From contig JADBEO010000025.1 of assembly GCA_031316315.1 (NCBI GenBank), positions 1 to 53,925 of the forward strand: a stretch of 53,925 bases of DNA, given 5' to 3'. Origin of the DNA: Chelatococcus sambhunathii (lineage in GTDB: Bacteria; Pseudomonadota; Alphaproteobacteria; Rhizobiales; Methylopilaceae). Of this stretch, positions 42,111 to 47,721 are shown piece by piece; position 1 is the first letter of the stretch, and every line of letters begins with the position of its first letter. The notes below the pieces were generated by a model. It did no database searches and was not told the DNA's origin. It saw only the letters and a list, made by a program, of their open reading frames with translations. The translations under genes were made by a program, and so were the position numbers.

Positions 42111-42920
42111 TTAGCTTCGGCGCATCGCCATGATTTCCGGCGTCGGCGGCTCGGAAGCCTCCGGGCGCGCCGTCGCTCGTCTCTCCGCCCAGACGCAGGC
42201 GCGGTAGTCGAAGCCCTGGACAAGCGTCGGCTTCACCACCTCGAAATAGGGCGAGATGTCGAAGTCCCGCGGCATGTAGAGGGAGTGATGGCGGATGTGC
42301 AGGATCTCGCGCCGCGCGCCCTCGTCCGACACCGTCTCGATCTTGGGCAGGATCGGATAGCGCACCTGCTCGAAGGCGCGGGCGATCAGGGACGAGCAGA
42401 TCGCCCGGGTCGGAAGGCCCGACCCCAGCATCAGCACGCGCCGGCCCATCGCGTTCGAGATCAGCGGCAGCGGCGTCAGGTAGCGCAGCAGGTCGAAGAT
42501 GTTCTTGACGTCGTATTCGTAGCCGAGCCGCAGGATGCAGTAGCGCGCGACCCGCTCCCGCTCGTGGACGTCGAGATCGTACGGGCGGCAGATGCGCGTC
42601 TGCTCGCCGGCGTATTTCGACAGCGGCGCCGAGGCGCAGCCGATGCCGAGCTCCATCTCGACCAGGGTGTGGCGCTCGCCGTCCGGCTCGAACGTGTCGA
42701 GCATGTCGCCGACATAGAGCACGGCGTGAGACCAGATCGACGAGGTCATGCGGCGGATGACGGCCGCGACGCGCGAGCGGCCCGCGACCAGCAGCACGTC
42801 ACCGACCTGGAGCGTCGCGCGCAGCGCCTCCGGGCTTCCGGGCACGAGCGGCTCGCTGCGGACGTCCTGCACGAGATAGTCGACGACGCGCCTGCCGACG
42901 GCGTTTCCGAGCCAGTCCAT
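42111..42920 (-). CDS. YiiX/YaeF-like permuted papain-fold amidase
   Basis: The 269-aa product resembles the circularly permuted NlpC/P60-papain group (C92 family, YiiX/YebB-like). In order: LQVGDVLLVAGRSRVAAVI (38-56), the catalytic-type His H65 in SIWSHAVLYVGD, EMELGIGC, LGYEYDVKNIFDLLRY, and the catalytic-type Cys C175 in LPTRAICSSLIARAF. Such enzymes are thought to cut amide bonds in peptidoglycan or lipids. No signal peptide is visible. ATG 42920 is chosen because the frame upstream to 43172 runs through the regulatory region. Its upstream region carries a CtrA-like half-site and a dense GANTC cluster. Confidence 0.8.
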   Translation of the reverse strand: MDWLGNAVGRRVVDYLVQDVRSEPLVPGSPEALRATLQVGDVLLVAGRSRVAAVIRRMTSSIWSHAVLYVGDMLDTFEPDGERHTLVEMELGIGCASAPLSKYAGEQTRICRPYDLDVHERERVARYCILRLGYEYDVKNIFDLLRYLTPLPLISNAMGRRVLMLGSGLPTRAICSSLIARAFEQVRYPILPKIETVSDEGARREILHIRHHSLYMPRDFDISPYFEVVKPTLVQGFDYRACVWAERRATARPEASEPPTPEIMAMRRS

Positions 42921-43035
42921 GGCCCCGAGCCTCCCGCGGGCCCGCCCGCGACCCTCCGGGCGATGCGGACAGATTGCCGCAGGCGCTGCAGGCGAAACGT
43001 TTCCCTGGCTCGAGTTGTCGGCGGTATTTCGGTCG

Positions 43036-43047
43036 ATATGGTTAACA
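43036..43047 (-). promoter_or_regulatory. CtrA-like half-site (TTAACCAT) upstream of the YiiX-like gene
   Basis: On the minus strand the sequence reads TGTTAACCATAT, containing TTAACCAT, a described CtrA recognition octamer. It is about 118 bp before the gene start. The same 12 bp occur at 46466-46477 before the SleB-type gene. Confidence 0.45.
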
Positions 43048-43077
43048 GAGGGTGGCGAATACGCTGTCGTAAATGGC

Positions 43078-43183
43078 GAATCGAGAACGAATCGGGAATC
43101 GGCGATTCGTCCGCGATTCGTTCTACTGGAACGAACCGTGACTCGACTCGTGGCCTCGCAGCTAAGACTCATCGGAGCGAGTC
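43078..43183. promoter_or_regulatory. Dense cluster of nine GANTC (CcrM) sites
   Basis: GANTC sites start at 43078, 43089, 43096, 43104, 43115, 43140, 43145, 43166 and 43179, nine in 106 bp. CcrM methylates this site in alphaproteobacteria, and GcrA reads methylated GANTC in promoters. It lies in the 359-bp gap between the YiiX-like gene start and the ethylmalonyl-CoA mutase stop (42921-43279), which has no gene. Confidence 0.7.
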
Positions 43184-43279
43184 GCGCCGATACTCCGGCT
43201 CACGAATACATGAGCGCGGCGGACGAAGACTCGCTCGGGGGTCCGGCGGTTGCTTCCGCCGGAGCGAGCGGCGCCGGCC

Positions 43280-45250
43280 TCACGCCGCCTCTTGGCCGGC
43301 GCCCTCGGCGATGCGGACGATGTCGCCCATGATGGCGGTGAGGTCGAAGTTCTTCGGGGTGTAGACCGCCGCGACGCCCATCGCCTTCAGCTCGCGCTCG
43401 TCCTCCGGCGGGATGATGCCGCCGACGATCACCGGCACGTCGTCGAGGCCCTCCTTGCGCATCCGATCCATCACGTCGCGCACGAGCGGCAGGTGCGAGC
43501 CGGACAGGATCGAGAGGCCGACGACGTGGACGCCCTCCTCGAGCGCGGCGTTGACGATCTCGGCGGGGGTCAGGCGGATGCCCTCGTAGACCACCTCGAA
43601 GCCGCAGTCGCGGGCGCGCACCGCGATCTGCTCGGCGCCGTTGGAATGGCCGTCGAGGCCCGGCTTGCCGACGAGCAGTTTCAGCCGCCGCCCGAGCGCG
43701 TTCGACGCCGCTTCGACCGACTTGCGCACGTCCGCGATGCCGGTGCCCTCGCGGTCGCCCTTCGACGCCTTGCCGACGCCGGTCGGCGCCCGGTACTCGC
43801 CAAAAATCTCGCGCAGGGTCTGGCCCCATTCGCCGGTCGTCACGCCCGCCTTGGCGGCGGCGATCGACGGCTCCATGACGTTGCGGTCTTCCCTGGCGGC
43901 CGCGGCGAGCTCCGCCAGCGCCCTGTCCACGGCCTTCTGGTCGCGCTGCGCCTTCCAGGCGTTGAGGCGCTCGATCGCCTCCTGGCCGACGCTCTCCGGC
44001 ACGACCTGGATCGAGCCTTCGCCGGTCGAGAGCGGCGAAGGCTCGGTGGCCTCGTATTTGTTGACGCCGACGACGACGAGCTCGCCGGATTCGATCGCCG
44101 CCAGTCGCCTGGCGTTGGACTCGACCAGGCGGCCCTTCATGTAGCCGGACTGAACGGCCGTGATCGCGCCGCCCATCTCGTCGATGCGGGCGAGTTCGGC
44201 GAGCGCCTCCTCCTTCAGCTGGGCGACCTTCTCGTCCATCACATGCGAGCCGTTGAAGATGTCGGCGTATTCGAGGATGTCGGTCTCGTAGGCGAGGATC
44301 TGCTGAGCGCGCAGCGACCACTGCTGGTCCCAAGGCCGCGGCAGGCCGAGCGCCTCGTTCCAGGCCGGCAGCTGCACGGCGCGGGCGCGGGCGTCCTTCG
44401 ACAGGGTGACCGCCAGCGTCTGGATCAGGATGCGGTAGACGTTGTTTTCAGGCTGCGGCTCGGTCAGCCCCAGCGAATTGACCTGCACGCCGTAGCGGAA
44501 GCGGCGGTGCTTCGCCTCCTTCACGCCGTAGCGGTCGCGCGTGATCTCGTCCCAGAGATCGACGAAGGCGCGCATCTTGGCGATCTCGGTCACGAGCTTC
44601 ATGCCCGCGTTCACGAAGAACGAGATGCGCCCGACGGTGGTCTCGAACACCTCGCCCTCGACGCCCGCCGCCTTGACCTCGTCCAGCACCGCGATCGCGG
44701 TCGCCAGCGCATAGGCGAGCTCCTGCGTCGGCGTCGCTCCAGCCTCCTGCAGATGGTAGGAGCAGACGTTCATCGGGTTCCACTTCGGCATCTCCTTCGT
44801 CGTGAAGAGGATGACGTCGCGGATCAGCCGGAGCGACGGCGCGGGCGGGAACACGTAGGTCCCGCGCGAGAGGTATTCCTTGATGATGTCGTTCTGGGTC
44901 GTGCCGTTCAGCGCGGCGCGGTCGGCGCCCTGCTCCTCGGCGAGCGCGGCGTAGAGCGACAGCAGCCAGGCCGCCGTCGCGTTGATTGTCATGGACGTGT
45001 TCATCTGCGCGAGCGGGATGCCGTCGAACAGGGTCCGCATATCTCCGAGATGGGAGACCGGCACGCCGACCTTGCCGACCTCGCCCCGCGACAGCACGTG
45101 GTCCGGGTCGTAGCCCGTCTGGGTGGGCAGGTCGAAGGCGACGGACAGGCCGGTCTGGCCCTTGGCGAGGTTCGACTTGTAGAGGCGGTTCGAGGCTTCG
45201 GGCGTCGAATGGCCCGCATAGGTTCGGAACAGCCAGGGCTTGTCGGCCAT
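43280..45250 (-). CDS. ecm: Ethylmalonyl-CoA mutase (B12-dependent, MeaA/Ecm type)
   Basis: The enzyme isomerises (2R)-ethylmalonyl-CoA to methylsuccinyl-CoA with adenosylcobalamin in the ethylmalonyl-CoA pathway, which assimilates acetyl-CoA without isocitrate lyase. From ATG 45250 the product is 656 aa and opens MADKPWLFRTYAGHSTP, followed by GLSVAFDLPTQTGYDPDH; the PTQTGYD variant and YAGHST fit MeaA-type mutases, whereas methylmalonyl-CoA mutase has FDLATHRGYD. The C-terminal cobalamin domain has DGHSNG with the cobalt-binding H535, plus LSILSGSH and VGGIIP. The frame is open to 45337 without family likeness. Methylmalonyl-CoA mutase is the main alternative, less likely. Confidence 0.88.
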   Translation of the reverse strand: MADKPWLFRTYAGHSTPEASNRLYKSNLAKGQTGLSVAFDLPTQTGYDPDHVLSRGEVGKVGVPVSHLGDMRTLFDGIPLAQMNTSMTINATAAWLLSLYAALAEEQGADRAALNGTTQNDIIKEYLSRGTYVFPPAPSLRLIRDVILFTTKEMPKWNPMNVCSYHLQEAGATPTQELAYALATAIAVLDEVKAAGVEGEVFETTVGRISFFVNAGMKLVTEIAKMRAFVDLWDEITRDRYGVKEAKHRRFRYGVQVNSLGLTEPQPENNVYRILIQTLAVTLSKDARARAVQLPAWNEALGLPRPWDQQWSLRAQQILAYETDILEYADIFNGSHVMDEKVAQLKEEALAELARIDEMGGAITAVQSGYMKGRLVESNARRLAAIESGELVVVGVNKYEATEPSPLSTGEGSIQVVPESVGQEAIERLNAWKAQRDQKAVDRALAELAAAAREDRNVMEPSIAAAKAGVTTGEWGQTLREIFGEYRAPTGVGKASKGDREGTGIADVRKSVEAASNALGRRLKLLVGKPGLDGHSNGAEQIAVRARDCGFEVVYEGIRLTPAEIVNAALEEGVHVVGLSILSGSHLPLVRDVMDRMRKEGLDDVPVIVGGIIPPEDERELKAMGVAAVYTPKNFDLTAIMGDIVRIAEGAGQEAA

Positions 45251-45373
45251 ATTTCGAGCTCCGCCTGCGACAGGACGGGCGCGCTCGGCCGGCGACGCCC
45301 CGAACCCTCGTCTTAGCTCACGTGTGCGGCGCCGCAATGAGCGAATCGTCGGAGGACGAAGGCGCCGGACTGG

Positions 45374-46390
45374 TCAGTCGAAATCCGACCAGGCCTGCGC
45401 GACGACGAAGTTCGCCATCGGGTTCGGCGTCGGATCGCCCCGCTTGCGGAAGATCGGCGCCGCGGAGGCGTAGACCGGCGTCGCCGGAGCGATCACGCGT
45501 TTGGCGTCGCGGCCGTCCTTGGCCGGCGGGGCGAGCGACATCACGACGGAAAGCGCCTCGTTCGCGGCTGGCGTGCGCGCCGGTTCGCCGCGGAAGGCGA
45601 GCGCCTTCGACAGGGCGCCGCGGTCGTCGACGATCTCCTGCGCCACGCGGGTCTGGGCGACTTCGGCCGCGGCGACCTGGATGACCTGCGGGGCGGCGGC
45701 GGACGCCACCTCGGGCCGGGCGTCGCCGAGCTCGATCTGCGGGGCGAGCGGCGCCGCCGTCTCCAGGGCGGGCAGCGCGGCGACCCTCAGGACAGGCGCG
45801 TCGTTCGGATCCTGCGGGACGACCTTCGCGACCACGCGTACGCCGACCCTGCGCTCGTCCTCTGCCTCCGCGAATGCGCGCGACAGAGAGTCCAGATTGG
45901 CCCTCGCGGCCTCCTCGTCGCCGCCGCGGTTCCAGCGGTAGAAGGCGTTTCCACCCGAGACGAGGACGTAATCCTTGTCGTCGTTGCGGAACGGGACGTT
46001 GGCGGTGTGGAAGAACATGGCGTCGCCGGCGGCCGGGTGGCGTAGCCCGTTCAGCACGGCTTCGGCGACCTGACGGGCCTTTTCCGCCGGCCTCTTCTCG
46101 GACATGCGGCGCGAGAGCACGCCGGGCGCGAACTGGCTCGTCTGGCCGACGACGCCGCATACGGTCGAGGCGTAGCGGCCGGATTCGAGACGGTTGGCGA
46201 CGACGGTGCCGACCGCCAGCATGCCGTCCTCACGCTTGCGATTGGATTCGAAATACATCGCGCGGGCCATGCATTCGACGTCAGTCAGCCCGGGCGCCTT
46301 GGCGCTGCGCCGGCCGGCCTCCGCCGCGCCGAGGCCGGCGAGAACGAGCGCGGAGGCGAGCGCCGCGCGCGTCAGAAGTCGATGGTTCAT
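45374..46390 (-). CDS. SleB-type cell wall hydrolase, secreted (paralogue 2)
   Basis: The 338-aa product has a Sec signal peptide (cleavage likely after AEA at about 25), a Hydrolase_2/SleB domain (about 36-155) with ECMARAMYFESN (catalytic Glu E48), GMLAVGTVVANRL, QFAPGVLSRRM and MFFHTAN, and a long Ala/Val-rich tail. The last 16 residues, NPMANFVVAQAWSDFD, match the end of paralogue 3 nearly exactly, and TPAANEALS recurs there too, so the two neighbours arose by tandem duplication. They would act on peptidoglycan in the periplasm. A CtrA-like half-site lies 78 bp upstream. Confidence 0.88.
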   Translation of the reverse strand: MNHRLLTRAALASALVLAGLGAAEAGRRSAKAPGLTDVECMARAMYFESNRKREDGMLAVGTVVANRLESGRYASTVCGVVGQTSQFAPGVLSRRMSEKRPAEKARQVAEAVLNGLRHPAAGDAMFFHTANVPFRNDDKDYVLVSGGNAFYRWNRGGDEEAARANLDSLSRAFAEAEDERRVGVRVVAKVVPQDPNDAPVLRVAALPALETAAPLAPQIELGDARPEVASAAAPQVIQVAAAEVAQTRVAQEIVDDRGALSKALAFRGEPARTPAANEALSVVMSLAPPAKDGRDAKRVIAPATPVYASAAPIFRKRGDPTPNPMANFVVAQAWSDFD

Positions 46391-46815: not shown

Positions 46816-47721
46816 TCAGTCGAAGACCGACCAGGCCTGGGCGACGACGTAGTTCGCCATCGGATTGGGCTTCGCCGCCGCGGCGTGGCCGATCACGGGC
46901 GTCAGCGAAGCCTGAACGGTCGCGGCCGGCGCGATCACCCTCAGGCCGCCCGCCTTCTTCGGGGTGAGCGCTGCGACCGCGGCGAGGGCGCTGTTCGCCG
47001 CCGGCGTATTGCCTTCGTCGCTGCGATAGGCCGAAGCCGCCGTGAACGCTCCGGATTGCAGCGGCGCGTCGCCGAAACGGACCTGAGCCGACGTAGGCGT
47101 TTGCTGAATGACACGCGCGAGGACGACCGGGTTCTCCATCGCCTTGCGTCGCAGCGCGGCGGCGAGAATCGGCGCAGCGGCGGCCTGGTCGATCCGGGCC
47201 TGGGCGTAGGCCTTCGCCATGGAGAGCGCGTTCGCGCGCGCCGCGGCGGGGGTCTTTGCGCTGCGCTTCTCGTAGAAGATGTTGCCGCCGGCGACGGTTA
47301 CGTAATGCATGTCGCCATAACCGAAGCGCAGGCCGGCGGTGTGGAAGAACATGGCCTCCTTCACCGCCGGGTGGCGGTGGCCGGAGATCACCGCCTCGGC
47401 CACGCGACGCGCGCGGACCGCCGCCTCGCCGCCCATGCCTCGCGACAGCACGCCGGGCGCGAACTGGCCGCGCTGGGCGACGACGCTGCAGTAGTCGCCG
47501 CCGTAGCGGCCCGATTTCAGGCGATTGGCGACGACCGTTCCAACGGCGAGCATGCCGTCTTCAGAACTCTTGTTGGATTCGAAGTACATCGCCCGGGCGA
47601 GGCATTCGCGATCGGCCGAAGATCGCGAGTGGGTCGGCTGCTGGGCGGCCTGCGCGATGGCGACGCCCGAAAGCGCAGCCAGTGCGAAGACGCCAGCGTG
47701 CACGACGGGCCGTTTTGGCAT
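46816..47721 (-). CDS. SleB-type cell wall hydrolase, secreted (paralogue 3)
   Basis: The 301-aa product has a Sec signal peptide (cleavage likely after AQA at about 25), the hydrolase domain (about 36-155) with ECLARAMYFESN (catalytic Glu E48), GMLAVGTVVANRLKSGRYG, QFAPGVLSRGM and MFFHTAGLRFGYGDMHYVTVAGG, and an Ala-rich tail closing with NPMANYVVAQAWSVFD, nearly the same as paralogue 2. It lies 425 bp upstream of paralogue 2 on the same strand. Both lack the lipobox of paralogue 1. Confidence 0.88.
   Translation of the reverse strand: MPKRPVVHAGVFALAALSGVAIAQAAQQPTHSRSSADRECLARAMYFESNKSSEDGMLAVGTVVANRLKSGRYGGDYCSVVAQRGQFAPGVLSRGMGGEAAVRARRVAEAVISGHRHPAVKEAMFFHTAGLRFGYGDMHYVTVAGGNIFYEKRSAKTPAAARANALSMAKAYAQARIDQAAAAPILAAALRRKAMENPVVLARVIQQTPTSAQVRFGDAPLQSGAFTAASAYRSDEGNTPAANSALAAVAALTPKKAGGLRVIAPAATVQASLTPVIGHAAAAKPNPMANYVVAQAWSVFD

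Follow-up and report, generated by a model that had tools for sequence, protein, structure and literature searches.

Introduction

GcrA has been reported to bind promoters with methylated GANTC sites (PMC3667746). An extended GcrA motif, YGAKTCK, was described in Caulobacter, and no such preference was reported in Brevundimonas (PMC7987155). CtrA half-sites were placed near −35 or over −10, and 108 GANTC sites were counted at 96 start sites, eleven of which had more than one (PMC4287350). GANTC was also described as under-represented yet enriched in intergenic DNA (PMC3973325). Furthermore, MucR was reported to shield GANTC sites, a bound protein can block CcrM, and P169 was listed with four GANTC (PMC5172544). 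In Agrobacterium, methylation was tied to replication (PMC11514494), and repABC loci were described as GANTC-rich (PMC11514494, PMC6090056). LexA and GANTC were treated together in Dinoroseobacter, with GTTC and GAAC consensus groups (PMC6473078).

The DNA analyzed in this study, referred to as the window, is a stretch of 53,925 nucleotides from Chelatococcus sambhunathii. It contains an array of nine GANTC sites upstream of a yiiX-like gene, which the original prediction took as a possible methylation-controlled promoter of that gene or a site for another methyl-sensitive protein. In our study, the element was real, unusual and conserved, and its reading as a promoter for yiiX proved too narrow. 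A comparable array was not described in the titles or abstracts among the open-licence literature matches listed.

GANTC Density and Layout of the Element

The nine GANTC sites lie within 106 bp (43078–43183), and the tenth stands at 43228, 45 bp beyond. The number expected per 106 bp is 0.14–0.16 (0.16 at the window rate), in agreement with the original prediction, which had put it well under one. Its description of the first five sites as GAATC, GAATC, GAATC, GATTC and GATTC was matched by the sequence, and that of a gene-free stretch also held, with no called gene between the start of yiiX (42920) and the end of ecm (43280). Longer mechanical ORFs cross this gap, and the start conserved among yiiX relatives is 42920.

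Across the whole window there are 80 GANTC, whereas 100 dinucleotide shuffles averaged 311 (sd 17.5); therefore, GANTC is avoided elsewhere in the window. None of the other 15 palindromic XYNY′X′ classes occurs more than once in the same 106 bp, and the second-densest GANTC cluster of the window has three sites. Many equally dense clusters elsewhere in the genome would have counted against the original prediction. In 378,400 bases of the source genome (509 GANTC in total), sampled as 20 stretches covering about 9% of it, five of them picked for holding GAACGAATC, no cluster of at least four GANTC per 106 bp was found. At the sampled-genome rate, the Poisson probability of nine GANTC in a given 106 bp was about 4e-14. 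A chance cluster was thus rejected by the shuffle, palindrome-class and sampled-genome counts and by the Poisson probability. A dispersed repeat was also rejected, the whole 401-bp gap having a single match in the genome.

Two further genomes of the genus were sampled over 400 kb each. In G012, where one stretch was chosen to hold the window-type element, two clusters of at least four GANTC were found: that element (eight GANTC) and one of six sites by a Rep-like ORF. The latter (L079:4620-4701; G012:C1:3084620) packs its six GANTC into about 80 bp just after the Rep-like ORF, which was read by eye as belonging to a plasmid-type element in the chromosome. In G007, where one stretch was chosen to hold the array upstream of the SUV3-like helicase gene (suv3 array), the two clusters were one of four sites (G007:C1:118040) and the suv3 array itself (five GANTC).

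The coordinates of the features are collected in Table 1.

Table 1. Coordinates of the element, its sites, the neighboring genes and the sister array.
Feature	Position	Strand	Basis or conservation
Whole element, TTAACC edge to outermost GANTC	43038..43232	.	Sequence and genus alignment
GANTC sites 1-9	43078, 43089, 43096, 43104, 43115, 43140, 43145, 43166, 43179		Nine sites within 106 bp
Array module GAACGAATC-N2-GAATC-N3-GATTC-N6-GATTCGTTC	43085..43123	+	GANTC at 0, +7, +15, +26; spacings compared with relatives and the suv3 array
Core inverted repeat TTCGTTC-N5-GAACGAATC	43115..43135	-	In 13/13 genus genomes, N5 or N6
GANTC (GAATC), outermost on the yiiX side	43078..43082	.	Position without counterpart in the other genus genomes compared
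Tandem GACTCGACTC (GAGTCGAGTC on the minus strand)	43140..43149	.	Two GANTC
GANTC	43166..43170	.	Kept in 7/8 same-type genomes
GANTC	43179..43183	.	Kept in 3/8 same-type genomes
Tenth GANTC	43228..43232	.	Kept in 5/8 same-type genomes
TTAACCAT, CtrA half-site-like	43038..43045	-	TTAAC 69-70 nt after the core in genus genomes
GTATTCG	43203..43209	-	GTATT invariant in eight same-type genomes, 74-76 nt before the core
yiiX-like gene, permuted papain fold by structure match	42111..42920	-	No match in 4/13 genus genomes
ecm, methylmalonyl/ethylmalonyl-CoA mutase-type gene	43280..45337	-	Upstream neighbor in the source genome (G000) and G010, by translation
suv3 array in the source genome (L190)	G000:C56:38412-38481		

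The alignment of the genus gave an invariant layout of TTCGTTC-N5/6-GAACGAATCG, with another TTCGTTC 23 nt further and a TTAAC at 69–70 nt. These offsets from the core omit the row of G009, in which TTAAC stands on both sides of the element; G005 has an additional TTAAC at 46 nt. In five genomes (G011, G007, G009, G004 and G005), a GAACRAA farther out on the opposite side completes a dyad-symmetric set of four half-sites, and in the first three of these every array GANTC sits within a GAACGAATC. The GAACGAA/TTCGTTC half-sites, which set the architecture, were not mentioned in the original prediction, and neither was the suv3 sister array. The CtrA-like half-site that it had placed by the cluster was found as TTAACCAT, and the distance of its TTAAC is conserved in the genus. 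A full TTAA-N7-TTAA was not present in 42901–43300 of the window, and the consensus promoter scan of 42850–43350 gave no sigma-70-like promoter or terminator. The −35/−10 consensus of the general stress sigma factor is GGAAC/CGTT; judged by eye, it did not fit the element and was rejected.

Conservation of the Element

With R1, a sequence-only model of the window-type element, one strong match was obtained in each of the 13 genus genomes (E 1.8e-22 to 3.2e-13), and the element was absent from five genomes of other genera of the family at E 0.01. The original prediction presupposed a ccrM gene. Genes for a CcrM-type methylase (PF18755, RAMA, the C-terminal domain of CcrM) and for GcrA (PF07750) scored over the cut-off in all 13 genus genomes.

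Conservation in place was compared in the eight genomes of the same type, the source genome included. The mean pairwise identity was 0.95 over the 20 nt with which the core begins, 0.65–0.83 in the neighboring steps of the element and 0.3–0.56 in most of the 20-nt flanking steps; beyond TTAAC it drops to the level of the flanks (at most 0.64 per 20-nt step). Among 16 palindromic classes, GANTC was the sole one conserved in place, with nine columns kept in at least 5/8 genomes and none for the others. In the tandem GACTCGACTC, the core-proximal GANTC was kept in 8/8 genomes and the distal one in 7/8, the middle letter of the former being G in five genomes and A in three. Thus, one aligned position of this locus reads GAGTC or GAATC in 8/8 genomes, and one in the suv3 array reads GACTC, GAATC or GATTC in 9/18. 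In the eight genomes, N changed in 7/72 cases against 28/288 for the other four letters, so N was no freer, in a count biased by picking the columns for GANTC. The half-sites are under stricter conservation than GANTC, the TTCGTTC arms persisting where GANTC is lost. Moreover, 8/10 GANTC of the element match the extended GcrA motif YGAKTCK, against 17/70 of the other GANTC in the window. The source genome holds 19 copies of GAACGAATC against three of its reversed control, and most of the 19 are solitary.

Relation to Neighboring Genes

Neighboring genes were taken from a simple codon-composition caller and named by reading their translations. The product of yiiX was matched by Foldseek to 3kw0 (E 9.8e-5) and E. 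coli YiiX 2if6 (E 1.8e-3), both with a probability of 1.00, from a model with a pLDDT of 75.4. Pfam gave nothing for it up to E 10, and the NCBIfam YaeF family was reached only at E 0.025, far below the family cut-off. The name YiiX-like given in the original prediction is therefore right by the fold of the model, and it is not backed by a family profile. Relatives of yiiX that carry a taxon name come from an uncultured Methylopila MAG (96% identity) and from Hansschlegelia zhihuaiae (82%), which places the window near these taxa. The window also has a pair of neighboring genes for cell-wall hydrolases (Hydrolase_2), at 45374–46390 and 46816–47721. The element was rejected as a part of ecm, which adjoins it in G000 and G010 only and was not seen there in the other 11 genus genomes.

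A yiiX match was found in 9/13 genus genomes, with none in G002, G003, G006 and G008. In all nine, the core stands 209–237 nt before the start of yiiX and the gap 5′ of the gene carries 4–9 GANTC per 106 bp, so the density upstream of orthologues, on which the original prediction laid weight, was conserved in 9/9 genomes. This density and the fit of most sites to YGAKTCK are in keeping with its methylation-controlled promoter of yiiX. That the element is simply such a promoter was not borne out. The four genomes lacking yiiX retain 135/136 cells of the 34 invariant columns defined on the nine yiiX-bearing genomes (34, 34, 34 and 33 per genome), and in the other columns they show only 34–48/71 majority matches. 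No yiiX was found near the element in these four by tblastn (best E 0.12), G006 has an apparent remnant of the yiiX start (by eye), and the nearest called genes on the two sides of the element in G002 and G003 are convergent. Furthermore, paired GAACGAA/TTCGTTC half-sites were present within 360 nt 5′ of yiiX in 0/26 relatives outside the genus, one of which has a single half-site. The yiiX loci of other genera from which these 26 were taken (21 relatives and L034–L039; L032 and L033 duplicate two records of the genus) had at most three GANTC per 106 bp anywhere in the locus.

A gene tree built from the SUV3-like helicase (13 genus genomes and four outgroups) stayed the same when G013 was added to the gene set, and on it the yiiX label needs three changes within the genus. 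A single change was enough in 0/200 bootstrap trees, but one loss is all that the strongly supported branches require by themselves. Because the best tree needs three changes and no bootstrap tree one, several separate losses of yiiX in the genus are likely. The left neighbors of the element also vary (pheT-type, ecm, divergent or other genes). The near-intact element in genomes lacking yiiX, the convergent neighbors, the tree and the varied left neighbors together indicate that selection on the element has a target other than, or in addition to, the expression of yiiX. Its conservation does not depend on the gene.

Sister Array Upstream of suv3

Weaker matches of R1 led to a second GANTC array, 109–131 nt upstream of the SUV3-like helicase ORF and behind ORFs read from their translations as DUF3108-type and L28-type. 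With R2, a model built from 12 suv3-array loci, the array was found in 18/18 family genomes, and 55/150 genomes of the order (five of this genus) matched at E 1e-4 or better. Fifteen of the best other loci of the order were inspected, and a helicase motif was close by in 15/15. The fullest form (L228) is GAACGAATC-N2-GANTC-N5-GAGTC-N3-GATTC-N6-GATTCGTTC-N7-GTTC, with GANTC at 0, +7, +17, +25, +36 and +47; most loci hold a part of this set, from one to six sites, and in the arrays of the genus the spacing after the second site is one base longer. The middle letters are mostly fixed, being T in 33/33 at the anchor, itself selected as GATTC, and G in 15/16 at −8.

The alphaproteobacterial LexA/SOS box has the consensus GTTC-N7-GTTC. 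A box of this type stands at a fixed place in 33/33 suv3 loci, and in some of them a GANTC lies inside its spacer; the anchor GATTC is likewise present in 33/33. A LexA box was rejected for the window-type element, being found in none of the 13 genus genomes. The window array resembles the suv3 plan minus 10–11 bp in the middle, and R2 scores the window copy at E 2.2e-6. The two arrays may be related by descent, or they may have converged because a single protein binds both; either is possible.

Nine R2 loci were inspected, six at the helicase gene and three elsewhere (L201, L210 and L216 in G016, G017 and G014 of a sister genus). The latter three have a GATTC-N8-TTCGTTC-like site with GGGAACAT in front, and they are perhaps further members of one regulon. 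In G012, the suv3 array occurs as two tandem copies 186 bp apart (L148, G012:C1:2267770-2268025).

Chromosomal Position

The distance from the element to parB was 3–4 kb in three genomes (G007, G009 and G011); it was larger in G008 (31 kb), G002 (85 kb), G006 (251 kb) and G012 (1.4 Mb), and in the other six genus genomes the two are on different contigs. The gene hemE is presumably a neighbor of the replication origin by synteny. Seven genomes have both on one contig; the element was 25–73 kb from hemE in five of them, and the distance rose to 164 kb in G006 and to 1.5 Mb in G012. Closeness of the element to the origin is thus common but not universal. In the sampled parts of G012 and G007, GC skew and counts of GGGNAGGG pointed only to a rough terminus near 1.1–1.2 Mb and to no firm origin. 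The element is unlikely to be oriC itself because DnaA boxes (TTWTNCACA) were absent within about 6 kb in 11/12 loci and from the whole window.

Upstream of hemE (L217–L224), at least one GANTC was observed 67–93 nt before the gene in 8/8 genomes, and TTAA-N7-TTAA 170–205 nt before it in 6/8. This interval is possibly an origin or promoter region. GAACGAA/TTCGTTC half-sites were found upstream of hemE in none of the eight genomes.

Possible Function of the Element

The explanation that we favor, with about even confidence, is a free-standing regulatory DNA array that has a CtrA-type half-site on its border and whose predicted occupancy would be linked to the methylation of GANTC. From the sequence we infer protein binding, methylation dependence and an effect on transcription. 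A dimeric or oligomeric protein would bind the GAACGAA/TTCGTTC half-sites, which are interleaved with CcrM sites at fixed, helix-scale spacings, and its occupancy and the methylation state of GANTC would depend on each other. The sites would be fully methylated before passage of the fork and hemimethylated after it. GcrA and/or a not yet named protein might read the array and so time transcription from adjacent TTAAC/CtrA-type promoters, which would be directed toward yiiX where that gene is present.

The nearest alternative is that GAACGAATC is the recognition sequence of a sequence-specific regulator and happens to contain GANTC, so that the element is its operator and methylation is irrelevant; we regard this as possible, though doubtful. 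The question between the two is whether GANTC itself matters. That it does is argued by the sites without a GAAC arm, many of which are kept in place in the eight genomes, by middle-letter changes that preserve GANTC, by the extended motif and by the avoidance of GANTC elsewhere in the window. The counterargument lies in the stricter arms, invariant in 13/13 genomes while GANTC at two arms is variable, in the mostly fixed middle letters and in the one type with all its GANTC inside arms. An operator would also suit the excess of GAACGAATC over its reversed control in the genome (19 against 3), but most of these copies are solitary. An improbable reading goes beyond the favored array and takes the element as a stand-alone epigenetic site. 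Here, a phased array of CcrM sites would serve a putative alphaproteobacterial reader of hemimethylated GANTC, a functional counterpart of SeqA, and would sense passage of the replication fork; one copy, at the SUV3-like helicase gene, would be widespread, and the second, specific to the genus, would no longer belong to any particular gene.

We give equally little weight to an ordinary CcrM/GcrA-controlled yiiX promoter, whose copies in yiiX-less genomes would be relics of a possibly recent gene loss. The gene follows the core at a narrow range of distances in 9/13 genomes, TTAAC keeps its place as would suit the CtrA half-sites reported near −35 of activated promoters (PMC4287350), and strongly supported branches require one loss only. 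However, the element is near-perfect in the four yiiX-less genomes, the best tree needs three changes with no bootstrap tree at one, and the 26 outside relatives of yiiX lack the paired half-sites. A chromosomal maintenance site near the origin, sequestering or titrating a reader of hemimethylated GANTC, would account for conservation independent of a gene, for the short distances to parB (3–4 kb in three genomes, 31 kb in G008) and to hemE (25–73 kb in 5/7), and for a likeness to repABC loci, described as GANTC-rich (PMC11514494, PMC6090056). It is nevertheless very improbable in view of G012 (1.4–1.5 Mb from parB/hemE) and G006 (251 and 164 kb), the absence of DnaA boxes from 11/12 loci and from the window, and the sister array upstream of suv3. 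A structured RNA or small RNA gene is extremely unlikely: the core is able to form a 10-pair hairpin, but compensatory change was seen in 0/10 pairs among nine sequences, the loop varies, a search of four sources gave no Rfam match there, and conservation falls to the flank level beyond TTAAC.

Comparison with Known Systems

The favored array can be set beside several described systems. Like alphaproteobacterial repABC loci, it has an excess of GANTC in cis-acting DNA, as reported for those loci (PMC11514494); unlike them, it has no repC recognized by eye beside it in 13 loci. As in the MucR-shielded hypomethylated promoters such as P169, several GANTC lie in one intergenic region; a fixed half-site architecture is not mentioned for those promoters as far as that source describes them (PMC5172544). 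The LexA/SOS box is shared by the suv3 array (33/33) and absent from the window-type element (0/13). The overlap of the suv3 array with this LexA-type box raises the question of whether methylation, DNA-damage and cell-cycle control meet at one site.

The closest likeness in parts is to the GcrA/CcrM promoters of Caulobacter (mipZ, podJ, ctrA P1 and others): the GANTC sites are intergenic, CcrM-type and GcrA genes are present, a CtrA half-site is nearby, and most sites of the element fit the extended GcrA motif. Unlike those promoters, the element has GAACGAA half-sites and is kept without a particular gene. It offers a compact natural probe of which proteins besides GcrA read GANTC methylation. 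Moreover, as far as these sources describe them, the Caulobacter promoters have 1–4 GANTC each (PMC3667746, PMC5172544, PMC4287350), in contrast to the ordered array of 4–10 sites found here, which outlives its neighbor gene.
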